Shown: piece by piece, positions 12,884-50,738 of the stretch
Layout of the letters: each line of letters opens with the position of its first letter
Numbering within the stretch: position 1 is the first letter of the stretch
Source: Thozetella sp. PMI_491
Lineage: Eukaryota > Ascomycota > Sordariomycetes > Chaetosphaeriales > Chaetosphaeriaceae
Assembly: GCA_021432635.1 (NCBI GenBank)
Contig: MU270016.1
Location: 125,608 to 189,607, forward strand
DNA: 64,000 bases
Direction: 5' to 3'
Program-made: the position numbers and the translations under genes
The notes under the pieces: model-generated
Databases searched by the model: none
Told to the model about the DNA's origin: nothing
The model's input: the letters and a program-made list of their open reading frames with translations, nothing else

Positions 12884-14789
12884 TTACTCGGCCCTCGATA
12901 GAAGGAAGCCCGAGTTCTGCAAGCTCTGAAATACGCCCGTGGGATCCCACTTCTTCGCAGCAGCCGTCAGTTGCGTCACGCCCTTTGGGCCATATCCCTT
13001 CAGGGGTGACTGCCATGGTGGCGAGTCGTTCATAAACAGAAAGTCAAACAGATTCGAGCGCTGATCTGCAGCAGACATGAACTTCTTTATGATTTCTTGC
13101 GTTTTCAAGAGAGTAAGATCCAAGTCTTTCTCGTCGGTAGACTGAATTACGAGAGCAATCCCTATATATCATAGTCAGTGCCGAAGCCCATTCATTACCC
13201 GAAGCTGACTCTTACATCCATGGGTTTCTGACGGAATATTCATGATGTTACCTCCCGACTCTTGACCTTTCTTCACCGCACTCCTACCGAGTGGCTGGAT
13301 GGTGAAGTTAGATGAGACAGAAGGAGGGAGGCCATTCGTGCCGTCTCGTAGCAACTGGTGCAGCTCCGTATAGAGCTTGGCATCTGGTCGAATGCTCATA
13401 GTTGCCGAGTTACCTCTTCCATGGCAATAGAGTTAGCTGTGCCTTCCTATGACTAGAGGAGGGGCAACGTACTTGAATGGCACAGGCATGAGTAGCATTT
13501 GGCATAAGGTATACTGTGTGCCAAGTGTGGCGGGGATCAGCTCAGCAGTCGGTTTGATGCTCGCAAATGCAGAGAAGACACCAGGTGCGGGTTCTTTGCC
13601 ACGGTACAGGGTTGCCACCACGAACGATGCTGGATCTACGGTTATGAAGAAACCAATTCGGTCATCAGTGTCCATGGCTTCCTGGGTCTTGACAACAGCC
13701 CCCATTACGGGTTCTGCGTCATCGACGCTGTAGGATTTCAAGTTGTACCACAATTTGTAGTCCGAGTGCGTGTAAAGCTCAAAGCGTGTGACAATTCCTT
13801 GGACAAATTAGCAACATTCGCCAACATCCTGGATGCGGATGGTTAAAAATACCAAGGTTGGGGCCCCCGCCTTTGAGGGCAGAGAATAGATCGTGATTCT
13901 GACTGGAGTTGGCCACAACAACCGATGAATCTGCCAAGACGACCTTTACGAACGATGAGCATCTGCAGAGTATGAGAGAAATGGCGTAGGTGATGATCTA
14001 CCTCGTAACTTTTCACATTATCGCATCCCATTCCCCAGTGGTTAGAGAAATGAGACATTCCGCCTAGTTTCCACCAGTAAGCAAAACTCGTACCAGCTTT
14101 GATGCACGGTTGGCAGTGACCCTCACCTCCGAGTAGGAATCCACCAACCCCAACCTCTTTGACCCGTCCACCTACAGCGGTAAGCTCGTGCTTCTCGAGC
14201 TCCCCATAGACGGCGTCCCAAGTCGCTGCTGGGCCTACCGACACAGTTGATTGGTCTTCTGAAAGTGCAATCTTGTTCATCAAGCTAAGATCAAATAGAA
14301 CCCCGGTTGACCCAATGCTGCCAAAACCCGCGTTCTGCATGTGCCCACCGCTCCGGACGGCAAATTTCACATTAAAGAATGTTGCGAGTTTCAGGACTAT
14401 CGCCACCTCGATGGCATTCTGGGGTTTCAAGATGCAACCGGCAGGGAGCCGGCATGCCAATGCCCTGTGAGAGATCAGCCACCGGTAGTCATCTCGATAC
14501 GCTGCAGAGTGTGACGACAAAGCCATGGGCCGACGTACCAATTCTTCTGCCTCGACTCATCGTATCCCTTGTCGGCTGGTCTGAGTACTCGCCCAGAGAG
14601 AATGATATCACTTGCCTGGGCAAGCGCAGCAAGGCCTTCGGATGGAGAACGCCGAAGTAACTCTGCTTGGAGACCATCCAACGATGCAGCATTCTGGGAG
14701 ATCAGGTGACTATAGCTCGATAAGCTATTGCTGTAAAGGCCCTTGAGCTTTTCAAGGACAGCGACTAGATCGTGGGAGAGGAGACCCAT
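12884..14789 (-). CDS. FAD-linked oxidoreductase, berberine bridge enzyme type
   Basis: Seven exons: 14789-14539, 14464-14127, 14063-14002, 13943-13853, 13797-13473, 13415-13216, 13161-12884, giving 514 residues with all phases consistent. The FAD-binding type 4 domain has FAVRSGGHMQNAGFGSIG, where the His of RSGGH is the usual covalent flavin site, then LGGGMSHFSNHWGMGCDNV and SALKGGGPNLGIVTRFE. The BBE C-terminus is present: FLFMNDSPPWQSPLKGYG, KWDPTGVFQSLQNSGF. No CxxxxC-type second flavin attachment is seen, which suggests single attachment. There is no clear signal peptide (MGLLSHDLVAVLEKLKGLY), unlike many secreted homologues. Such enzymes oxidise alcohols, sugars or secondary-metabolite intermediates; the substrate is unknown. 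Its nearest neighbours are a TLDc-like gene and a Zn2Cys6 regulator. Confidence 0.9.
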
Positions 14790-35690: not shown

Positions 35691-37513
35691 ATGTCCGAGA
35701 AGACCGCGACAGGAGCAGCTACGTCCCTGTCGGAAGAATCTAACAGCCCCAGTCAAGATATCCAGGCCCCAAGTGATGCTCACAACGGTGATGTCGTGAG
35801 CACCGGCGGCTTAACATCAGATGCTGGTTCAGTGGCCAAAGGATGGAAGTTCTGGGCCATCCTTCCTCCCTTGTGCATATCAACGCTTCTTGTTGCACTC
35901 GAGAGCACCGTCACTTCCACCGCTCTCCCATTGATTACAGCAGATCTCAAATCTGGCGATAACTATGTCTGGTTCCTGAACGGGTACCTCCTGACCGCGT
36001 AAGTATTTTCTGCTTGCATGACTAGGAGGAGAAGGACAATTTGGGGATTGAAGCTAGTGCTAACATATTAATCTGCAGTACCATCTCCCTTCCTCTCTAT
36101 GGACAGTTTGCCGATGTCTTCGGCCGGCGCTGGCCCACGATCGCCGCCGTCGCTCTATTCGTTCTCGGCAGCGGCATTAGCGGTGGCGCGACTTCAACGG
36201 CGATGCTGATCGCCGGACGCCTGATCCAGGGCCTTGGAGGAGCAGGGATTAACTCCTTCTCTCAGATAATAATATCGGATCTGGTCCCGCTGCGGGAACG
36301 AGGGAAATACATGGGCCTCGTCTTCGCCGTCTTTGGGGTCGGCACAGCGCTGGGGCCGCCTATCGGCGGCATCATTGCCCAGAGCGGTGACTGGCGCTGG
36401 GTCTTTTGGCTCAACATTCCCGTCGGTGGCTTCACTCTAGTAATGCAGCTACTGTTCCTGAAGGTGGAATATACTCAGCGCTCGACGTTCCTGGAGAGGC
36501 TGCGCCAGATCGACTGGGTCGGAAACGCGCTGCTGAGCGGCTCGGTGGTGTCGGTGTTGATCGCCCTGTCCTGGGCCGACACCCGATACCCCTGGGGCTC
36601 GTGGCAGATTATCCTGCCGCTGATACTCGGCGTCGTTGGCCTCGCCGGCTTTCACATCTATGAGGCGTCGCCGTGGTGCGCACCGCGCCCCGCCATTCCG
36701 CCTCGGGTATTTGGCAACCGAACAAGCGCCGTCGGGATGGTGCTCAGCTTCTTTCAGTCTATGCTCATCTACTGGCGTACCTACTTTCTTCCTTTGTACT
36801 TCCAATCCGTCTTGCTCGCCAGCCCTTCGCGATCGGGCGTGCTTCTGCTTCCTACCATCCTGATGGGGATCCCGTCGGCCATCGTGGCCGGCGGCGTGCT
36901 ATCTAAGACCGGCCGATATAAGCCCATCCATTTCTTTGGGTTTGCTATGAACGTTCTGGGGACTGGCCTATTCATCGATTATAGTTCATCTTCCTCGCTC
37001 GCCAAGGTCGTCCTTTACCAAATCGTGAACGGATTTGGAGGTGTCTTGCTTACCTCTATGGTCCCAGCTATCCAAGCCTCGCACCCACAGGCCGACGTTG
37101 CAGTTGTCACATCGACCTGGTCGTTCTACCGGAATTTTGGTGCTATCTGGGGCATCGCAATCCCAGCGGCAATCTTCAACAGCCAGATGGTTCGACAATC
37201 AAGCAGCATCCACGATGATACTGTACAAGAGCTGCTTGGGAGTGGCAACGCTTATGCACATGTCTCAAGCTCATTCATCGCCTCCCTCCCTCAACCATTG
37301 CAAGGAGAGGTCGTTAATGCGTACGGCATCACCATGAGGACCCTGTGGGAAGTATGCTTGGCCTTTACCGTCCTTGCGCTATTGCTTGTCTTTGTGGAGG
37401 CCGAAATCCCACTTCAAAGGACTCTGAAGTCAGACTATCAGCTGGAGGGAGTTAAGAAGCAAGAAGATCAAGAGGCTGCAGTCCCCGCGCCGCCATCTGG
37501 CACGAAGGCGTAG
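35691..37513 (+). CDS. MFS transporter, DHA2-type drug/metabolite efflux pump
   Basis: Two exons: 35691-35998 and 36079-37513, donor GTAAGT, giving 580 residues. A hydrophilic N-tail of about 50 residues precedes about 14 membrane segments. The intron falls after TM1 (FLNGYLLTA), joining to TISLPLYGQFADVFGRRWP, which carries the MFS motif A variant (GQFADVFGRR). Other family signatures: LIQGLGGAGINSFSQIIISDLVP, GTALGPPIGGIIAQSGDWRW, FWLNIPVGGF and LGSGISGG. It probably sits in the plasma membrane and exports metabolites or toxicants by proton antiport. It transcribes toward the AflR-like gene (tail to tail, 258 bp apart) and is the left edge of the putative lipid gene cluster. Confidence 0.93.
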
Positions 37514-37771
37514 TAGGTGCTATCAACACTGAGGAACCTACATAGCATTTTGAAGGGATAAAGCGAAGCTATTATGTGACGCCATGAAGGTAGTCTAGGC
37601 GATGGGCGCGGTGAATAAATTCTGGTGATGGTCGGTTTCTTTGACTTTTTGCTGTTTAAATATTCCTCAAATACGACCATAGAGCCGCCCTCTTGACACA
37701 TAATTGAGACAGTGCCTAGGTTGGCTTCAAATGGGCAACAGGAAGTGTCATTATAGCTCTATTTCCGTCAT

Positions 37772-39058
37772 TTATATCATTAGCGCGACTCGACGGGTCT
37801 TCAAGGACCTTCTAATGTCACGGATCATCTGGTAAGCAGTCTCCTCTCTTGATAGAAGTGCCTTGTGCGACACATCTGGAATCGAGCTCTGTTCCTGCCA
37901 CGGCATCGTTTGCTCGTCCTCCCACCGCTGCTGGCTATAGGGCTTTTGCATGACGGGCATCATTAGCATGTTCAAAACATCCAGAACCTCCTCTACAACT
38001 TCGAGCGTCAAGCGTAGCTTCAGGATTGGATACCCTTCCAAACTAGAGAAGCAGACGCGAAGCGTCAGGAGGGGTAGCTCGGGCACTTTTGAGGTCGTGT
38101 CGGATCCGAGGATCCCGCCCCAAGGAGGCGAGGCGGCCATCGCTGCATCAAACGTCTGCTGGATGGCGCCGAGTCGTGCCGTGATAAGCTCCAGGACGCG
38201 GACGTAGCACGAGTAGATGATCAGGGTAGTGCCAGGGTCGAGGTTTGGTGGACCGCCGGCGAAGCCCTGGCCGGGTAAGTCGCTGCTACTGGTACCGTGC
38301 AGCTCTCTAAGGGCTTGTACAAACTTGACGGCGAGCGTGACAGTCTGGTCGAATCCCCTCTTGACTCGGCAAAAACCGGGAATCCCGGAGGTAGCTATGC
38401 AGTCATCGTTGGTGGGAATGTCTGTAGGGGCTGGAGCGGGGGTATCGTTCATCGCGCTGTTGGCGTGCTCAAACAGCTGCACATTAATCGCGACGAGATC
38501 CTGAAGCCAGTGTGCGGTGCTCCGCTTGAGACGTGACTGACCCTGGGGCCCTTGGCCGGTGTCGTAAGCTGCCGCGATACTACTCATGCCGCTTGGCCAG
38601 TCGAAGCCCGTCGTTGTGTCACTCTCGTCGGATGGAACTGCCGCAGCCTGCGTTGTCTCGTTTCCCGCCGATTGCATCCATCCTTGGGCCTCATCAGCGT
38701 ATGGGAACGGGTGTGGTGATGGCTCGGTCGGCGTTTGGGCCTGTCCACCGAGGCGGTCGCCGAGATGCACGAGGGCATTCGGCGTCATTTTAGTGCCAAG
38801 AACCGACGAATCGCTGGAGACACCGGCTCCACGACCAGGGACGTGTCGCTTCGGGCGCTCACGGCTCACGGCTCCCGTGAGATCTGGCAGTGGCCTACTT
38901 CGGCGGTTTCGAAGCGATGGGCTGGAGGTGCACGGCGTCTTCGCCTTGGTGCAGCGTGCGCATGACCCATTCTCTTCGCGGTGGCAGCTGAGCTTCTGCG
39001 CGTGGCACCGGTCGCAGGCTCGGCGAAGCACTGGATCTTTTTGCGCGCGACCGACCAC
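37772..39058 (-). CDS. AflR-like Zn2Cys6 regulator; start codon unresolved
   Basis: Open frame of 428 residues. The zinc cluster [20 protein letters not shown]...C is followed by a Ser/Pro-rich linker and a helical C-terminal region ([20 protein letters not shown]) as in the aflatoxin regulatory protein family, which controls secondary-metabolite clusters. The boundary at 39058 is where the frame becomes open after a stop; it begins with GTG and no in-frame ATG precedes the cluster. An ATG at 39060 is in a different frame. A small upstream exon ending in GTGAGA near 39146, with a CTGAC branch near 39066, is possible, but the phase does not fit the ATG I can see. Either the start is spliced from elsewhere, or a one- or two-base indel has broken the gene. 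It lies inside the cluster between an MFS pump and the reductase-acyltransferase gene. Confidence 0.8.
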
Positions 39059-39714
39059 ATAACGTCAGTGCATGACCCTAGGATTTTGAGGGGAAGAGGG
39101 AGCAAACCAGGCATGAAAGAACCGATAGATATCTCACGATAGGTGCATGTATGGTGTATGAACGACTTTGTCTGGGGCTGGTCGGCTAGGATTGGATTGC
39201 AGTGCTTAAGCCGGAGGAAGGCCAATGGTCTTGAAGGTGCTTGGTAATTACAAACAGGGCCTCGCGGTAGCGCCGCCCACTAGCCGCCGCCCCCACCAAG
39301 ACGCAATGCTGAGGATATGCTGCTTACCTCTCTATCTACACAAGTGCTCAACATGCAGCATGCTTTCCTGTACCGACATCTACTTACAGAACATATGTAT
39401 TCACCCGAGGTATTGCCCCGCGCGGCAAATCGTCGTCTTTTTAAAGTAACTGGGTAATTATTCGGGCAAGATGCGAGCGTTGCTTGGAGGTCGCATGCAG
39501 TCACACGCAGCTTTCGGTTCTGTGAAGCCTCGCAACACCACACTCTTCCAGTCTAGATTGCAGAACGTCTACTCGTGCGTGCTCTCATTGGTCTCCGAGG
39601 CCACTCTATTGCCAGTTTCATCTTTGAATCGGGCTATGGTCGTCTGCTGATATACCAAATCGATCGCTCGCAAGCACCGGGCCTCTGCGAGAAGCGAGGT
39701 GCTGGCGCTCTAAC
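39059..39714. other. Region between AflR-like gene and reductase-acyltransferase gene
   Basis: Should contain the promoter and any leader exon of the AflR-like gene and the 3' end of the fusion gene. No independent gene is supported. Confidence 0.5.
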
Positions 39715-42111
39715 CTATCCTTCCTCAAAGAAATGAATCCACTGGTTTCTAAGATTCGATTCAAGTATGGGAGAAACCGGATGCTTAGGGCCCGCCGAAA
39801 GTGCTCCCTCGAGCACCGTTGCGCCCCTCTCCTCTAGTCGCCCTTGCAGCCACTTCACGCCGTCAGGCTGCTTCTCCACCTGGGCAAGAGGGCAGTGGCG
39901 CGTGCAGGGGCCGAAATGTTGATGGTGGTGCACGAATGACTCTAAATGGTACGTAGTCACTACTGTGTTTGCCTGAAGTTCCTCTAGGATGTCCCGGGAG
40001 AGCGAGTGCACGTCGGTGTCGGGGTCAAGATCCAGCAGCTTGCCACATTTGATGTGCACCCTCCCGAGCTTCACACGGCCGACGAGCATCTTGCAAACCC
40101 ATCTGAATAAGCCGATAACGTTCATTCGCGACTTCTCGAGCTCCAGAGTCTCCCTTATAAATACGTCCTCTTCTGGAACACGTTCGTAGCTAATTGATAT
40201 TGGTAGCACCTTCAGTGGTTTCCCGGTGCTCTGGAGTGATCGAAGAAGCCCGCGACGCAGGGTCAGGAACTGCCTAGAGCGGCTTCGCTGTCCCTCAGGA
40301 AAGAACATGACGTGCTCGTCTCGCTCCACCAGTTGTTTGACATGGCTATCGAGATTCGGGTCTCGCCGTCCGACACCGCGCTGCACGTAAAATGCACCTA
40401 CTTGTCGTAACAGCCAGCCGAGAATAGGAAGTTTCGAGAACGCGTCCTGAGCGGCTATACACGGAATCTTGACGCTGAGGCCCGGGAAGTGGTAAAAAAG
40501 ATAGGGACAGATCACAAAGTCCACAAAGCTGCGGTGGCTCGGCAGAATCACCAGTTGCCTGTCAGCTAGGCCGGGCTCGTAGCATTCCAAGGCGTTGTAG
40601 AACGATCGCTCATCAAACGTGACCTTCTGGAACATCCGACCCAGAGCCGAGTAGACAATGACAGACGCCATGCGAATCGCCCAACCACCTCTAGAGGTAG
40701 CAAAGAGTCCCATCGTGCTAGGGCTTTTGCCCCCAAGCTCCTCGCCCGCGATTAATCGCTCGGTGGAGGCAGTGTTTTGTTGGCGGGCACGGCGCATCAT
40801 ATATTGCTGCGCCCCTCGAAAGACAAGCTGGATGTAGACATCCACCTCGAAATCGGGCATTTTTTCCTGTACTGTTGGGCGGCTTGCGACGAAGTAAAAG
40901 GTATTCGATAGGAAGTATCCAAATGTCTGGTTCAGCTTCTGAAGCCCTTGGGTGGCCCGCTTCAGCCGCGCCAACCCTCGGCTGTCGCCTGTAAGGATGC
41001 AGACAAATTTCATCAAATAGATGAGTAAATCTTGCCATAGAAACTGTCGGATCCTGGCCAGGAGCGAGTGCTGGAAGTCAAGCCAGCGAACCGGTGTGTG
41101 CTGGAAGTACGAGGCAGCTATCAAAGAAAAGGTTCGGGGCCTGAGGCCTTTGACCCCGGATACGCAGTGTCGAATCTGCAACGAGGATGAAGGCGGTGTC
41201 TCGAACGTCTCATCCACAAGGAATTCGGCGACGAAGTCAACCGGCACGAGATCGAGATCCGTGTCGGGGCGGCTTTGCAGTGCATATAAACTGCCTGTCT
41301 GCATGACCAGGACAACTCCGGCCAAGGCATAGTGGCTGTCCGTCCATGCGGGAAAAGGGCGTTCCATTGCTGCGCCAATGATGCTAGGGCGAACAATGGT
41401 CGTCGGGATTTTGCCGTGCGCATCTGCCAGAACATGCTCCGCGATGCACTTGGAGAGAGTATAGGTGTTCGGGTGTCCGATCCGCCGTAGTATCTCTTGT
41501 TCATCAACAGACCCTGAGGATAGATCTTCCATGAGTTCTTCCGGATTTGACCATGGGCCCAATGGAACCAAGCTCTCGTAGATGTCTTCCAGCCCAGTAT
41601 GCGGCGTCACGTAAGCAGTCGAAGTATATACCAGATGCTCAAGTTGGATACAAGCTCGTGCCAACTCAAGGACGTTTCGCGTGCCTTGCACATTTATCCT
41701 GATGGCCTCGGCAAGTGGTAGGTCAAACTGGACGCAAGCGGCGCAGTGAATAATGTGGGTTATTTCTTGTGATATTTGTTCATAGACCGAAGGATCTAGA
41801 CCAAAGGCTGGCTGCTCCATATCCCCGTAAACAGGATAGACGCATTCAGCCCAGTCTGAAGGTAGATTGGCGAAGCATTCGGAAGAGACGACTTCAGAAA
41901 AGCGACATGTCTGGCGCGGCTCCGCGGCGGTGCCAGGCTTGCTGGACGGGCTGATAGGACGGATAAGAAGGATTACTTTCGCGACACCCAGCTCTTGTCG
42001 CCGTCGAATGAGTCCTTCTAGAACTACTTTGCCCAGAAAGCCAGTCACGCCGGTGAGAAAGAGTGTCTTCTCCGCACCTGGAGACTCCGCCATGGTGCTG
42101 GGAGTCTCCAT
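39715..42111 (-). CDS. Fatty acyl reductase fused to GPAT/DHAPAT-type acyltransferase
   Basis: Single exon, 798 residues. Residues about 15-330 form an NAD(P)-binding fatty acyl-CoA reductase domain: TGVTGFLGKVVLEGLIRR (nucleotide loop), VILLIRP, IIHCAACVQFDLPL, INVQGTRNVLELAR, VYTSTAYV, the catalytic YTLSK (YxxxK) and TTIVRPSIIGAA. A FAR_C-like helical part follows to about residue 440. Residues about 530-740 form an acyltransferase with all four motifs: HRSFVD (Hx4D), GAFYVQRG, FFPEGQRSRSR and LPISISYERVPEED. These are closest in form to glycerol-phosphate/DHAP acyltransferases. In animals FAR1 and GNPAT are separate peroxisomal proteins of ether-lipid synthesis; here both steps are in one chain. 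Predicted: reduces acyl-CoA to fatty alcohol and acylates DHAP or a related acceptor. The end (HFFEEG) is not a PTS1. Confidence 0.9.
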   Translation of the reverse strand: METPSTMAESPGAEKTLFLTGVTGFLGKVVLEGLIRRRQELGVAKVILLIRPISPSSKPGTAAEPRQTCRFSEVVSSECFANLPSDWAECVYPVYGDMEQPAFGLDPSVYEQISQEITHIIHCAACVQFDLPLAEAIRINVQGTRNVLELARACIQLEHLVYTSTAYVTPHTGLEDIYESLVPLGPWSNPEELMEDLSSGSVDEQEILRRIGHPNTYTLSKCIAEHVLADAHGKIPTTIVRPSIIGAAMERPFPAWTDSHYALAGVVLVMQTGSLYALQSRPDTDLDLVPVDFVAEFLVDETFETPPSSSLQIRHCVSGVKGLRPRTFSLIAASYFQHTPVRWLDFQHSLLARIRQFLWQDLLIYLMKFVCILTGDSRGLARLKRATQGLQKLNQTFGYFLSNTFYFVASRPTVQEKMPDFEVDVYIQLVFRGAQQYMMRRARQQNTASTERLIAGEELGGKSPSTMGLFATSRGGWAIRMASVIVYSALGRMFQKVTFDERSFYNALECYEPGLADRQLVILPSHRSFVDFVICPYLFYHFPGLSVKIPCIAAQDAFSKLPILGWLLRQVGAFYVQRGVGRRDPNLDSHVKQLVERDEHVMFFPEGQRSRSRQFLTLRRGLLRSLQSTGKPLKVLPISISYERVPEEDVFIRETLELEKSRMNVIGLFRWVCKMLVGRVKLGRVHIKCGKLLDLDPDTDVHSLSRDILEELQANTVVTTYHLESFVHHHQHFGPCTRHCPLAQVEKQPDGVKWLQGRLEERGATVLEGALSAGPKHPVSPILESNLRNQWIHFFEEG

Positions 42112-43200
42112 TGACGTTTGGATATCTGTCCTTCTCTGTGCCTATAAGTGACAATATAACCTGTATCGCATGGATCACGCTCGTGCCCGATACCACAAGG
42201 GAACCACCTAGCTAGGCCGCCGTGTCAAGAGTATGATCAACTCGCTACGCCCAGATGAGTAACGTACCGGCCGACGCAAGTAATCAAGCCACAAAGCAGG
42301 TACAGAAACGTAAACCAGGAATTGGTTTCTTGAGTCGCTGCGGCTGTCAAGAAAGGCATGCGGATGCCTGCAGGTATAGGATCATAGGTTCAATTGTTGA
42401 TTAAAAGAGACATAGCATCGACGTGGGGGTAGTCCTCGCACACCCGACGTGAGACGACGCCCGAAGGGTCGCAATGTTGAAGTACGCTTTCCCAGGCCAG
42501 AGAGATATGGGCCCAACGCACACGACGCAGCTTTTCTTGCAGCCTCGGCTACTAGCTGCTGTAGTTCTGTCCTGGGCACGGGGACTAGCCAGCCCAGCAA
42601 GGAAACTCGCAGTCGATAGTGCATATTACGCCGTCGGCTCCTAACGTAGCCACGGCTCATTGGGGCTCGGCGGCCACAGTCAGCAACACACTGGCTAGCT
42701 GAACTGTGCAGCGCTTAGGTGCTTTACTTAGTATGTCGACAGGTAGATAGGGGGCCTGCATGGGCTAGTGCACGCATCCTGACCAGACTCCAACGCCCTA
42801 CGACAATGCGATTGGCAGGGTTGCAACCCCTGTCCGCCATATATGCGGGAGGGATAAGTATTTGGCCTTGCCGAGACCAGGGGTGGTAGCCTAATGCAAC
42901 CTCGAACTTTACCGCTGGGTTATGGTGGCGTTAGCGGGTCGAGACCTTGGTGCCAGAGGAACAAAACTCAGCCCTTGTGGTGTGGCCCATCGTATTCACG
43001 GGCGCCCAGACGCCCGGGAGTGTGTAACCACCTCAGCAGAGCGACGCGAACGGGCGCCGGTCTAACCCTGTTTCCGACTTACCTGGCCATCTATATATCC
43101 CGACGTGCCTGGTAGGGCTGGCTTGCAGTTTGCACCGAATATTGGATCGAATTGTCGCCGATTTGCCTTGACACATGCTTACCTACCGCATCGGCCGAGT
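42112..43200. promoter_or_regulatory. Divergent promoter between fusion enzyme and PAQR genes
   Basis: About 1.1 kb between the ATGs of two divergently transcribed cluster genes. A TATATAT box at 43092-43098 lies about 105 bp before the PAQR start. No exact TCG-N5-CGA site was found. No gene inside. Confidence 0.5.
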
Positions 43201-44148
43201 ATGCGAGAACGCCAGAAGCATCCCGGCCACAAGGCGCAAGTCGCCGTGCAAATGACTGCCCCGACACTGGATCGACAGATCGCCCTTGCACTTGCTGCAG
43301 CACGGACGTCTAAGTCGGGCCTAATCTCAATCGCAGACCTCCCGGTCCCATGGCAGTACAATGCCCATGTCATCCACGGCTACCGCTTCACCAAGTCGCT
43401 CTCACATTGCATCCATTCGGTCTTCCATCTACACAACGAAACGTTTAACATTTGGTCGCACCTTCTAGGCTGCCTTTACCTCATCAAGATCCTTTTGTCC
43501 GGAGGACCACTTCTGCACCACGGAGCCGAAGACGGAGCCGAGCTTGTGGGCTTTGCGGCCATTTACTATGTCTACATCGCAGCGGCGGTCCTCTGCACGG
43601 CCTGCAGCGTATCGTGGCACACCATGCGATGCATCGCCTCCCACGACCGCATGTCGTGCTTCTCGTCGCTGGATCTAATGGGCGTTACTACGATGGCTAT
43701 CGCCTCAGTCCTCGTCACACAATTCGTGGCATTTGCCGACGCTCCCTTCTGGTGTTATAGTTATATGGGCGCCACCGCGATGCTAGGTGCCGCGGCGTTG
43801 ACCGCATGCTGGCTACCCATCATGCGGCGGCCCGAAAATTCGTGGGCCCGCGTCCTAGTGTGGTGCGGGTTGGTTGCGCAAGGTCTCGTGCTGCCGGTTG
43901 TCCACCTGTTGTGGTCCAAAGGCGCGCAGAGGGCTGCCGAGGTTTACGGGCCGCTTGTACCCTCATACGGTCCTATTCTCTTTGGCGCTATCATATATGC
44001 CTCGCAGTTCCCTGAGTGCTACTGGCCCGGACGCTTCGACTATCTTGGCGGCAGCCACAACATCTTGCATGTTGCTGCTTTGTGGGCAATTTTACTGGGT
44101 ATTGACGCGCTTAAGAACGTGTACCGGAGCAGAGAGATTTCTTCGTGA
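43201..44148 (+). CDS. PAQR / adiponectin-receptor-like seven-TM protein
   Basis: Single exon, 315 residues from the first ATG (MRERQKHPG); a second ATG at 43252 is possible. Family motifs are in order: PWQYNAHVIHGYRF, HSVFHLHNETFNIWSHLLG, then TM helices, SVSWHTMRC, SLDLMGVTTMAIAS, and near the end FPECYWPGRFDYLGGSHNILHV. These contain the Ser, Asp and three His residues that coordinate zinc in PAQR receptors and related alkaline ceramidases. Family members act as lipid or sterol sensors and several have ceramidase-type hydrolase activity. In this cluster it might sense or process a lipid product or adjust the membrane to it; that is inference. It ends only 83 bp from the convergent MFS gene. 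Confidence 0.92.
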   Translation: MRERQKHPGHKAQVAVQMTAPTLDRQIALALAAARTSKSGLISIADLPVPWQYNAHVIHGYRFTKSLSHCIHSVFHLHNETFNIWSHLLGCLYLIKILLSGGPLLHHGAEDGAELVGFAAIYYVYIAAAVLCTACSVSWHTMRCIASHDRMSCFSSLDLMGVTTMAIASVLVTQFVAFADAPFWCYSYMGATAMLGAAALTACWLPIMRRPENSWARVLVWCGLVAQGLVLPVVHLLWSKGAQRAAEVYGPLVPSYGPILFGAIIYASQFPECYWPGRFDYLGGSHNILHVAALWAILLGIDALKNVYRSREISS

Positions 44149-44231
44149 TATGAGAGGCGAAATTCTCGAAGACTTTGCATCAAAAGTTAAAGCCAGGGGG
44201 GGGCTTGACTCTATCTGAGGTCATCTGTATT

Positions 44232-46019
44232 CTATTCTTCTTGTTTGTAGACTTTGCGGCTCGTTTCCCGAGACCATATGACTAGAACTAGAGCAATACC
44301 CGCCAAGACAGCCATTATAATCCACACAGTTTGGAAGCTTTGCATAGCAATGCGCTGATAGATCTCCACGGTTACTTCGTCTAAGCTGGCGATCATCTCG
44401 GCGCTCTTCTCCGCATCGCGTCCTTTGATAATCACTTCCAGCAGGCCTTGGCGCAGCTCACGCTCCAGAAGCGCGTCCCATCTATTTTGGAAGGCTGTGC
44501 TGGCCACAGCCACGCCGAAACACTCTCCGATGCTTGTGGCGGTCGCGACGACGGCCGTGGCCATGAAGACATCACTCTCGGCGACGGCGGTCTGTGCCAT
44601 GAAGACTTTGCTGATAAAAGGGATACCGCAGCCAGTCCCGAGCATGAGTAGAAGAACGACCCGAAGGCTGACCGGAGACGACTCGTGAAGTGCGGTGAGT
44701 CCACCCAAGCCACCCACTAGGAGCAAGAAAGCGAAGATGTTGAGAGTTTTGTATTTAAGCGTGCGCCCAATGATGTGCCCAGCAATCCCAGCGGCAAGCG
44801 GGAAGGTGATGGTGGCTGGGAGCATCATTACAGCGGCGCCGAGGTATGAGTACGAGCAAAAGGTTAGCTGGGACATGGCACAGTGATTAGCCACGAACGC
44901 GAGATATTCTATAGAGATGATATGGGTTCTTACATAGAGGAAGAAGTAATATGTAGTCGTCCAGACGATCATAGCATGGATGATGGTCATGATGTATGCA
45001 GATGCCGCGGTTGGGCTAGAAAATAACCGCCCGGGGAGGATCGCTGTCGCCTTGGCCACTAGCCGCTCGTACGCGGCAAATAAAAAGAGTCCAGCAGTGC
45101 CGCATACCAATGGGGCCAAAACATTGCCAGAGGACCAGGGATACACGGCATTTCCACTATTCAGGGCGAAAAGAATCCCTCCCAAAGACGCCGTCACAAG
45201 AGCGGCGCCACCCCAATCCGTTCTCTTCAGGGTCGTCCATACCGAATCCTGCCTCTCAGGGACGCGAAGACAGAACGCAAAACCGAAGATTGTAGGTACG
45301 CAGAGCGGCAAGTTGATCCAAAAAATCCTGTACACGACTTAGTCGCCTGCTGCGACGGGGCAAGCCGTCTAAGTTACTCACACCGGCCAGGACACGCTTT
45401 GCACAATCGCGGCGCCACAGAGACCACCAGTGACTAAGGCAATAGCTGCAAATAACGTAAGGATGCCTGTATATTTTGGTCGTTCCTCAATAGGGACTAT
45501 GTCGGTTAGGATCAACTGGATGAGGGCATTGATGCCACCTGTGCCGATGCCTTGCACCTATATCGATGAACTTTTCGTCAGAATGCCCGCTTTTCTTGGC
45601 ACCCGTCTGGGGCTGCGTAATCTCTACCAGGATATGGAGAAACATAGAGCAGGGATAATACTCACAGTTCGAGCAGCGATGAGCCATTGTACATCACGGG
45701 CGGTGGCGCACAGGATGCTTGCAAAAGTGAAAAAGCCGAGGGCGGCAAGCATGCATGTTCGGCGATCTAGGGCTTTGGCGAACACGGCGTACACCAGCTG
45801 AATTACGCTCTGGGCGAACAGGAAAGCAGAGCTGCACCAATATGCATTCGCTGTCGTCGCTTGGAGGCTCGCTGCGATGGCTGGAAGAGTGGACGAGAGG
45901 ATGATCGTATCGAGTGCTGAGATGAAGCAGCATATACAGAGGCACGAGACGACCATGTAAAACGAAGCATTTCTGGCCGGGTACGCGGCCGGAACACAAG
46001 TCTCCGAGGCAGGATCCAT
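44232..46019 (-). CDS. MFS transporter, second pump of the cluster
   Basis: Four exons: 46019-45666, 45557-45382, 45327-44934, 44867-44232, giving 519 residues, phases consistent. Joins restore ARTVQGIGTGGINALIQL and SWPVIFWINLPL, as in DHA2-type MFS proteins. The third intron (GTAAGA...TCCCAG) is 66 bp and in frame without stops, so the unspliced frame reads through; splicing restores the helix ...FFLYLTFCSYSYLGAAVMMLP. About 12-14 membrane segments, motif-A-like FAKALDRRTCML (weaker than in the first pump), and FGVAVASTAFQNRW near the C-terminus. It probably exports the cluster product or a precursor. Its promoter is shared with the divergent desaturase-like gene, which suggests joint regulation. 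Confidence 0.9.
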
Positions 46020-46966
46020 CGGTGCAGTGTACCGCAGATGCGGGGATGCTGCGGGTTCCAAAGCTGAGAGACAGCGACATAGACACGCCGGGTGGGCGAC
46101 GACTAGGTACGACCAGAGCCGCAGTCGTGCCACCCTAGGACCAAGGGCTAGAATATCGAGTGATCCGTATCGAATATAGCGAGCGGAAGTCTCGAGTCAG
46201 GGAGGAGACAGGGGTTGGCTTCGGCAACGGACCTATTCGTATGCAGTGAGAATGGCAACCGCAGGCTCTCTTCCGGTCGAGCGCCAATAGCGCGAGAAAT
46301 GTTGCAGCTCGTTTACAGAACCCTTGGAGACTCCAGCTGACGGAATGATGTCCAATCGCTACGCGTGATAGTCCGAGGTGGTACCTCTGAATGCAGCCTC
46401 TTGGCGGCGCAGTCATGCCTTGCGGAATACTTCGGCCGTGAGATAGGCGCTACTAGAGAATCCGCATGCCCCTCCTGCGTCCTAGATTTTCCTCAAAATT
46501 GGCAGAAACTATATATATATATTAGGAGTTGCGCACCGTACAGAAAAGCATGCACGTCCGATGGCTGCAGCGCCCTGCCTACAGTCCACTACCAGAATCG
46601 ATCGAGCCGCCTGGCCTCGGCAGTGTCGGCACGATGCTCTGAGGCACGCGGCGGGGCTTCACTGGGACGCGAACCCTTTGCTGAGCAGCTGAATCGAAGG
46701 CTGACCACACCCATTACCGTTGGCACAGAGAGGAAGTGTGGGAACCATCCAGTCTGCATTAGTCTAAACCATGCGTAAGCGTTGCATCGTGCTACTGCGC
46801 GTCGACGGACTTAGCTACTATTAAGCCGCCACGATGGGCTGGGGTGCGGCTGTTCGGACAGGGGAGCATTTTGGGCTGATTACTATACTAACACCTTCTC
46901 TGGCACCTCTCCTCGAGAGGTGAGATTTCCCAATTAGTCTCGTGGGTAGACCACTCCACCGCCGAC
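46020..46966. promoter_or_regulatory. Divergent promoter between MFS and desaturase-like genes
   Basis: About 950 bp between two divergent starts. An AT-rich TATATATATAT run lies at about 46510-46521, too far from either ATG to be an obvious TATA box. The plus-strand frame 46365-46778 has no family signal and is not called. Confidence 0.5.
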
Positions 46967-47893
46967 ATGGAGATCGGGCCCCACGAGTCCAAAGAAGAGA
47001 GCGATACCAAAGTCGGGGCAAACGATGGCGCCCCGCACGAACTCGAGGATCATGGTCCTGACCGACCGGCCGCCTTCGCTGCCTTGGAGCTGGCTGGAGT
47101 GGCGGGTTTTTTAGGTCTCGTCGCGAACACGGGGAAGGGGGCTTACATTTCCTTGAGCGGATGCGTAAGCCCGGTTCTGGTCGGCCGCATGGGTATCGCA
47201 GTCGTGCTTGGGATACTGGCCGCCGACCTCGGTTCCGGCATCGTGCACTGGGCCGCCGACAACTGGGGAAGCGGCACCTGGCCGATCGTTGGGCCAGCGT
47301 TCATACAACCTTTCCGCCACCACCACGTTGACCCGCGTGCCATCACAAGGCACGGATTTCTCGAGCTTAATGGCAACAACTTCATTGTTAGCCTGCCGTT
47401 GGCCTGGGTCGCCTCTGCCGTGCTCTCATCCCCGAACGTAAATCCTGATGCAGCTCTGGCGACTGCCAGCTTCTGGCTGTCGTTCGCGATGTTTAGTGCC
47501 CTTACCAATCAGTTCCACTCCTGGTCGCACATGGAAAACCCCCCCAGGCTCGTCCAGGTCCTGCAGAGTGCCAGGATACTCATGTCCCGGAAGCACCATC
47601 ATGTGCACCACATTCGCCCGCACGACCGGAACTAGTCCGTATTCCCTTGTTCTTTATTGCCATTTTCGTCGAATATCGGGAGTATTTGCGCTCCTACTCT
47701 TGAGACATGCTCCGGGTAGCCACATAAACATCCATTTCCAGGAAATTACTAACACTTAGGTATGGCTAGCTGCATTACAACGGGGTGGTTGAATGGTCCC
47801 TTGGCCGCTATCCGCTTCTTTGAAGCCATCGAATGGGCAATTACGGTTACGACAGGGGCAGTTCCCCTTCATGAAAGTCTTGAAAAGGGCTAA
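46967..47893 (+). CDS. Plasmanylethanolamine desaturase-like protein (TMEM189/PEDS1/CarF/Kua family)
   Basis: Two exons: 46967-47634 and 47770-47893, giving 263 residues; human PEDS1 is about 270. Without splicing the frame stops after HHIRPHDRN. Joining TA|C across the intron (GTCCGT donor, TACTAAC branch at about 47747, GGCTAG acceptor) yields NYCITTGWLNGPL, the conserved C-terminal block. Motifs: LAADLGSGIVHWAADNWGS, AFIQPFRHHHVDPRAITRH, ELNGNNFIVSLPLAW, NQFHSWSH and RKHHHVHHIRPHD, the eight-histidine di-iron pattern of the family. Three to four membrane helices; ER-type integral membrane enzyme. Characterised members introduce the vinyl-ether double bond of plasmalogens (animal, myxobacterial) or the plastid trans-3 double bond (plant FAD4). 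It neighbours the reductase-acyltransferase fusion, which supports an ether-lipid role. Confidence 0.9.
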
Positions 47894-48740: not shown

Positions 48741-49811
48741 TGTGATTCAAGGCGAGATAGTGGCGAGAGATAAAACCCCAAATTCATGGACAGTGATTTG
48801 GTTCTGGCAATGGTCTTGATTCAGGGCAAAAACTAGATGGGCGGACCCTAAAACCACCGTGATATTGCTGGCCAGCTCTTCAGGGTAATCTCACTGCCAA
48901 GGGACGAAGCATGAGACGATGGGAGTGAAGAATTGGATGTTTTGGTGTATCAAGCTCTACTTAAATGTATCCCTCTAGTTAGTAGCGAAAGGTGATGGTG
49001 TTCATCGCCGTAATGGCGATCTGTCCTCCTTCACAATCCTTTCCCAACCGCCGTTGGCACCTACATACAAATGGCTGAAACTAATGGTGGTGGAACTTTA
49101 GACCAACGATGCTAGCTTTTGTTGGCTGTTTCCTCTTCTGGGCCGTGATTCCATTCCTAGAGTTGGTGAGCAACTACACGTGTTGGTAATTTATCTCAGA
49201 TGGTTGCCTGTACTGTGCCATCTAGGATTCGTCTGTCACACAGTTGGTGGCTACTTAGGGCAACCCTTGATTGCTAACAGGTGCCATTGGTGCTTACTAA
49301 CAGCTTAGCCCAGAATAGGATACAATCGGCGGAAATGATCGAGAGTGCAGCATCTCTAAGAGCTTCATGGACAGAGGCTATAGCGGACTAGTCGGTGATC
49401 ACGCCCGGTAACAGAATATTTATTTGCCGGGACTTGGCCAAGACTGCCGCTCTTGAGGGGTTATCATGCGGGGCTCACTACACTAACAAATGGGGTATCA
49501 TCCACGACGGTGACGGTCATTTAACAATTGCCGGGTATCCCCCTCCCAAACTATATTAGCCTGCTTCTTGTAGACGAAGTATTTGCCCTTAAAACAACAT
49601 CGACCAGTTTACTGTCATATAGAACAGACCGACTTCTGCCAATTTACAACATTCGCCTTCATTTAGAGGAGGGCTCAGAAGATAAAAAACAATCTTTGAG
49701 CTAGACAGACTATAGGTAAGCTGTGGTGAGAGGAAGTGATACCTACATCAGGGTGATCATGGGTGTTGCATCTACTGACCTAGGTTTACACAATTGAAAG
49801 ATCCCGGAGCC
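48741..49811. other. Intergenic region upstream of SDR gene
   Basis: Divergent promoter region between the secreted-protein gene and the SDR. No coding frame, terminal repeat or RNA gene recognised. Confidence 0.5.
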
Positions 49812-50738
49812 ATGTCGAAACCAGTTGCCATCGTCACCGGAGCAGCATCCGGCATGGGACGCGCGGTCACTGAGCACTTACTAGACAAGGGCTATCGCGT
49901 CGTCTTGGTCGACATAAATGATATCGAGGGTACAGCTCTTGGCGCTCAGCTCGGGGAAGATGCCATGTTCTGCAGGGCAGACGTTTCCAAGTACGAGGAG
50001 CAAGCGGTGCTGTTTTCTAAAGCCTTCCATTGGGGCGGCGGCCGCCTGGACGTTTTGGCTGCCAATGCCGGTATCGCGGACACACAGAGCCTATATGAAG
50101 AGAATGCGACGATGACGCTAGACGCGAATGGCATACCTCTGCCTCTGGATTTGAAGACCGTTGAGGTGGACCTCACCTCCGTCATACAGGCTCTCTGGCT
50201 CTTTAAATTCTTTGCAAGGCAAAACAAGTCATCCAAGGGGGGGAAGGTTGTCATAACATCGTCTGCTGCCGGATTTTAGTAGGTGCTGCGGTCTTGGAAG
50301 CCGTTCACTCTTCCACGCCTCTCAGCTCGATATAGCATATCGCTAACCCCGGGGTGCGTAAATAGTGGCATGGAGACAAATCCTCTCTATGGCGCCGCCA
50401 AGAGCGGACTAGTCGGACTCACCCGATCTGTTGGGCCCGTCCTGTACAAGCAAGATAGCATCACTGTGAACTGCATCTGCCCGGCGTTCGTTATGACCGG
50501 GCTCTGTCCTCCTTCCATGAGAGATACCTTCCCCAAGGAACATATCACGCCAATGAGCACCATCATCAAGGCATACGATACCTTCTTGCTGGATGACAAT
50601 ATGACAGGTCAATGTGTGGAAGCCAGCCTCGACCACCTGTACTTTCGCGAGCCCCCTAAATGGGCGAACGAGAGCCAACGGTGGCTTGGCGAGGAGAGTG
50701 TCGCCTTTTGGGAGAAGGCTTACCCAACCAGCACGTAA
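49812..50738 (+). CDS. Short-chain dehydrogenase/reductase
   Basis: Two exons: 49812-50278 and 50366-50738, giving 279 residues. The unspliced frame stops right after SSAAGF; the join TA|T (donor GTAGGT, branch GCTAACC, acceptor AAATAG) gives GFYGMETNPLYGAAKSGLVG. The Rossmann motif is IVTGAASGMGRAV, with VVLVDIND after beta-2 (an Asp that favours NAD(H)), AANAG, the Ser of ITSSAAG and the catalytic YGAAK (YxxxK). The active site is complete. Resembles 15-hydroxyprostaglandin-dehydrogenase-like SDRs that oxidise secondary alcohols of lipids or metabolites; the substrate is unknown. It lies just right of the lipid cluster and may or may not belong to it. Confidence 0.9.

Follow-up and report, generated by a model that had tools for sequence, protein, structure and literature searches.

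A candidate ether-lipid locus with a reductase–acyltransferase fusion and a PEDS1/CarF-type desaturase in the fungus Thozetella sp. PMI_491

A six-gene locus and its flanks

The window, by which we mean the whole 64,000-nucleotide stretch that was analysed, lies on contig C2 of the 72.3-Mb assembly of the ascomycete Thozetella sp. PMI_491 and contains a locus of six genes at 35.7–47.9 kb. Domain matches and gene models recovered all six where the initial annotation had placed them, in the order MFS transporter (+), Zn2Cys6 protein (−), a fusion of a fatty acyl reductase (FAR) with an acyltransferase, hereafter FARAT (−), PAQR protein (+), a second MFS transporter (−) and a PF10520 desaturase (+). 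The first MFS gene (35691–37513) has an intron at 35999–36057 and matches MFS_1 (E = 2.4e-39) and, as a TRI12-like protein, TRI12 (3.1e-14). Next to it is the Zn2Cys6 transcription factor (about 39064–37772, the 5′ end being approximate), a candidate regulator that had been called AflR-like; this label did not hold up, as Zn_clus (5.4e-5) is the only domain found even at E ≤ 1, with no AflR domain at that threshold.

FARAT is a single intronless ORF of 798 aa (39715–42111, minus strand), and has a common upstream region (42112–43200) with the PAQR/HlyIII membrane protein (43201–44148, plus strand; HlyIII 2.3e-36). The latter matches adiponectin receptor 2 (2.1e-24), and displays SxxxH, D and HxxxH motifs that presumably form the zinc site; counting this gene, the genome has seven PAQR loci. 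The second MFS gene (44232–46019, minus strand) consists of three exons with two GT-AG introns and faces the desaturase gene (46967–47893, plus strand) across another common upstream region (46020–46966). The gene models confirm two divergent pairs, namely FARAT/PAQR and MFS/desaturase, which are separated by 1.1 kb and 0.95 kb, respectively, from start to start. A survey of 39 spaced-palindrome patterns over four upstream regions, with 300 simulations, revealed no convincing shared promoter motif. The top pattern, TCGN9CGA, is present in three of the four regions with p = 0.007 before correction for the 39 patterns and two statistics, and we do not take it to be a real regulator site.

The Pfam scan covered 27 of the 39 listed ORFs of the window (20 flanking), with the outer flanks L051 and L052 lying outside it. 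The scanned upstream flank codes for a tannase, a Zn2Cys6 protein with a Fungal_trans domain, a peptidase and an alpha-N-acetylglucosaminidase (NAGLU; 351–2261, with both domains there), and the downstream flank for a short-chain dehydrogenase (SDR), a Zn2Cys6 protein and subtilases, all of which appear unrelated to the locus. The SDR gene (49779–50735) begins 1.9 kb past the desaturase; it might conceivably serve as an alkyl-DHAP reductase, but resembles a generic member of its family.

The FARAT fusion and its AGPS partner

The fusion proposed for the window gene stands: a NAD_binding_4 domain (1.2e-58) is followed in the same chain by an Acyltransferase domain (1.5e-19), and both catalytic motif sets are there, namely TGxxGxxG, YTLSK, HRSFVDF, FPEGQRSRS and LPISISYERV, which we take to be reductase and acyltransferase motifs. 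A genome search recovered two FARAT genes in the 72.3 Mb. The second (C1:1817371-1819740; L038, L047, L048) is likewise intronless, is 55% identical to the window copy and has kept the reductase and acyltransferase motifs. Upstream of it, 6.6 kb away and beyond an aromatic amino acid lyase, is an acyl-CoA-synthetase-like ORF, while a LysM/chitin-binding GH18 gene lies downstream. The acyltransferase half matches NCBIfam PlsB weakly (82 bits against a cut-off of 610).

Comparable fusions have been described in other eukaryotes. The FARAT of Dictyostelium discoideum (fatA), as presented in PMC7375469, has this architecture and makes acyl-DHAP for ether lipids, and in its knockout the ether storage lipid falls to about 13%. 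Going by PMC7375469 and PMC13256971, this protein and TtFARAT of Tetrahymena both join an N-terminal fatty acyl reductase to an acyltransferase of the DHAPAT type and initiate the synthesis of ether lipids. By these descriptions, rather than by sequence alignment, the fungal protein is the same reductase–acyltransferase fusion, though shorter than that of Dictyostelium (798 versus 1279 aa) and lacking its SKL end. Among bacteria, PMC9131029 describes Myxococcus xanthus MXAN_1675 as FAR1-like plus GNPAT-like and adjoining the alkyl-DHAP synthase (AGPS) MXAN_1676.

We then compared the fungal FARAT with 189 genomes from the phylum of a deltaproteobacterial MAG, which from its gene content is probably Myxococcota. 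With the best five or six candidates per genome scored, at least 20 full-length FARAT genes were found in at least 18 of the 189 genomes, at 37–40% identity to the fungal protein (E from 2.8e-130 to 4.2e-149); further matches cover one domain. In 20 of the 20 full-length genes found, an AGPS gene lies 69–174 bp upstream on the same strand, and these linked AGPSs are 49–54% identical to the fungal AGPS described below. One genome (G191) has a strong AGPS with no full-length FARAT following, and four weaker AGPS-like genes (31–33%) likewise have none. PF10520 is present in 16 of the 18 FARAT genomes (G173 and G182 being the exceptions) versus 105 of the 195 genomes searched across the phylum. 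Our YxxxK pattern, in which a serine was fixed, left the bacterial FARAT rows unmatched. G120 and G127 each have two AGPS–FARAT pairs, which suggests duplication of the whole pair.

In a tree of the acyltransferase domain, the 20 FARAT rows (two fungal, plus 18 of the 20 bacterial genes, two being without a locus) form one clade (100/100) apart from 13 other acyltransferases, which from length and motif we take to be mainly PlsB-type; the bootstrap of this tree was not fully settled, outgroup L124 was off target, the row from the fungus's own genome was partial, and L128 and GNPAT were absent. The earlier reading of FARAT as an ether-lipid enzyme is upheld by the Dictyostelium architecture and by the AGPS adjacency.

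The initial annotation had seen no AGPS in the window and pointed to the rest of the genome, where we did find one clear copy. A FAD-oxidase_C profile search gave 14 matching stretches, among them a 635-codon intronless ORF at C21:96404-98308 (L006), which matches guinea-pig AGPS over residues 75–632 (3.5e-150, 504 bits; 43% identity over 560 aligned positions) and Dictyostelium AGPS at 279 bits, whereas the top-scoring chain under any other name reaches 101 bits. Its best match across the catalytic domains is AGPS, and the SLSHHHGVG stretch is kept. Since no other genomic match to this ORF is full-length or exceeds 28% identity, we count a single AGPS in the genome. The BBE-type enzyme at 12.9–14.8 kb of the window was discarded as an AGPS candidate, its scanned ORF (13846–14556) having only FAD_binding_4 and AGPS lying elsewhere. 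Both AGPS, on C21, and the second FARAT, on C1, are unlinked to the window locus. A pattern scan of the two FARATs and AGPS found no PTS1 or PTS2.

In the AGPS tree the fungal protein groups with bacteria (89/81). In AU tests a single eukaryotic clade was not rejected (p = 0.091), and the fungus with guinea pig gave p = 0.058, so that the bacterial origin that this tree points to is suggestive only. Searches for viral relatives of FARAT and PEDS1, and for plasmid relatives of exon 1 of PEDS1, returned none.

The desaturase: PEDS1/CarF versus FAD4

PF10520 is found in one gene of the 72.3-Mb genome, as two exon matches. Exon 1 (46967–47634, ATG at 46967) alone matches the family at 1.7e-43; a single GT-AG intron (47635–47769) separates it from exon 2 (47770–47893, beginning CITTGWLN and ending in the stop TAA), for a protein of 263 aa. 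The family also includes plant FAD4, and PMC7149458 reports that His131 (CarF 113) is kept in TMEM189 proteins and absent from plant FAD4; published mutants point to eight essential histidines and to His131, Asp100 and Phe118 (mouse numbers). The fungal desaturase has the eight histidines, His131 as a ninth, Asp100 and Phe118. Its residue spacing equals that of mouse from His96 to His131 and is one to two residues shorter later; the spacing equivalent of mouse His215 is fungal His211, and His210 is also a histidine. His131 is present in 31 of 32 bacterial PF10520 rows (31 genes, one present twice). The exception, L134 (G191:C5), has Gly there and looks FAD4-like; a second copy in its genome (L138) is of the PEDS1 type, and an AGPS is present as well. 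At E ≤ 0.01 the sole NCBIfam match of the fungal protein is CarF/plasmanylethanolamine desaturase (1.7e-61), at 208 bits, whereas the equivalog cut-off is 500; with 344 bits, a deltaproteobacterial homologue does not reach it either.

These features bear on whether the fungus might make alkyl ether lipids without a vinyl ether, the PF10520 protein instead desaturating the acyl chain of another lipid in the manner of FAD4. Shared family membership, the sub-threshold CarF score and the motif TRHGF, where most bacterial rows have.HDF or.HDY, are in keeping with such an activity; His131, the FAD4-like look of the one bacterial row without it, and the linkage to FARAT speak against it, and we regard it as distinctly unlikely. 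The fungal protein is thus best classed as PEDS1/CarF-type rather than FAD4-type, with PEDS activity likely from its residues, and the TMEM189/PEDS1/CarF homology proposed at the outset is retained with a sub-cut-off NCBIfam match. A genome search for a YhhN lysoplasmalogenase found none.

A probable ether-lipid pathway and its alternatives

With AGPS identified on C21, the genome codes for the enzymes specific to ether lipids, namely a FAR, a DHAPAT-type acyltransferase, an AGPS and a desaturase of the PEDS type, and all of them appear intact. The intact motifs, the membership of FARAT in its clade and the linkage of FARAT to the desaturase are all features of the Thozetella sp. PMI_491 genome. 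We therefore favour, as somewhat better than an even prospect, an aerobic ether-lipid pathway of the animal and myxobacterial kind, with the window coding for its first and last dedicated enzymes. The N-terminal half of FARAT would reduce acyl-CoA to a fatty alcohol and the C-terminal half would acylate DHAP; AGPS would exchange the acyl for the alkyl chain, giving alkyl-DHAP; ordinary reductases and phospholipid enzymes would lead to a plasmanyl-ethanolamine lipid, into which the PEDS1 homologue would insert the vinyl-ether double bond of a plasmalogen. The clustered FARAT, one of two, probably has a regulation of its own, for which the neighbouring Zn2Cys6 protein may be responsible. These steps and their order, this regulation, and any roles of the PAQR and two MFS proteins, including membership of the transporters in the unit, are what we infer from the gene content.

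The reactions proposed are those of the animal pathway (FAR1, GNPAT, AGPS and PEDS1/TMEM189), but in animals FAR and GNPAT are separate proteins with defined peroxisomal targeting, whereas in the fungus they are fused, with no signal found. M. xanthus, with MXAN_1676-1675 and CarF, has the same three enzymes and CarF-type residues; in bacteria, however, AGPS adjoins FARAT, whereas in the fungus FARAT is near the desaturase and AGPS is elsewhere. Several points weigh against the pathway: this unlinked AGPS, the CarF score below its cut-off, the missing YhhN, the lack of PTS1/PTS2 where the Dictyostelium FARAT ends in SKL, the report in PMC9131029 that MXAN_1676 loss lowered M. xanthus ether lipids only slightly, ElbD doing most, and the statements that fungi lack such lipids.

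How far the remaining genes belong to the pathway is a separate matter. It is quite possible, at a little under even chances, that only FARAT and PEDS1, or not even they, belong together and that the MFS, PAQR and Zn2Cys6 genes happen to lie nearby. The seven PAQR loci and the failure to find a convincing shared motif are in line with this, but the two divergent pairs are not, and a post hoc estimate that assumes uniform placement gives a probability of about 3e-4 that one of two FARATs would come to lie at most 4.8 kb from the PF10520 gene. At the other extreme, the locus might be a small secondary-metabolite-like cluster, in which FARAT, PEDS1 and PAQR make a lipid or modify one, MFS proteins export it and the Zn2Cys6 protein controls it, while the C1 FARAT and AGPS serve the membrane. 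The grouping of a regulator with two MFS genes and divergent promoters within 12 kb would fit this, as would the second FARAT elsewhere, but AGPS is single and unlinked, so that the clustered FARAT must share it; moreover, fungal genomes abound in MFS and Zn2Cys6 genes and the promoters yielded no convincing common motif, leaving this improbable. The initial proposal of a joint ether-lipid gene set accordingly stands for the FARAT and desaturase enzymes, and less well as a self-contained unit: with AGPS and the second FARAT on other contigs, a self-contained cluster is a weaker description than a pathway with two dedicated genes linked.

Contamination of the assembly by bacterial sequence was also considered, given that FARAT and AGPS have their closest relatives in bacteria (prokaryotic genomes alone having been searched) and that both are intronless. 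We reject it as highly improbable: GT-AG introns interrupt PEDS1 and each of the two MFS genes, and the FARAT copies lie among fungal-type genes on large contigs (2.0 and 3.1 Mb). A more speculative scenario, which we hold to be doubtful, is that the AGPS–FARAT pair, and perhaps PEDS1, was gained from bacteria and FARAT then duplicated, one copy joining the desaturase in a regulated, exporter-bearing, inducible plasmalogen or vinyl-ether cluster operating outside peroxisomes.

According to PMC9131029, PMC13256971 and PMC7149458, fungi are without plasmalogens or ether lipids, and PMC10329083 calls plasmalogens specific to animals and bacteria; the wording "save some" in PMC9131029 implies that isolated fungal lipid reports exist. 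Among the open-access matches listed, none had a title or abstract that reported a filamentous fungus with FARAT, AGPS or PEDS1, which is weak evidence for novelty. The gene set is real, and we read it as a probable variation on an established pathway, in a kingdom supposed to be without it. In other ascomycetes, PF10520 proteins carry the annotation "Kua-ubiquitin conjugating enzyme hybrid localisation", and the pathway would suggest re-annotation of such proteins and of FAR–acyltransferase genes in other fungi. Finding FARAT, AGPS and a PEDS1 bearing the diagnostic residues in one fungus makes the supposed fungal absence of these lipids directly testable; if the pathway is real, it would be a eukaryotic route with two early steps fused and no visible peroxisomal signal, and would connect the fungal and myxobacterial ether-lipid genes.
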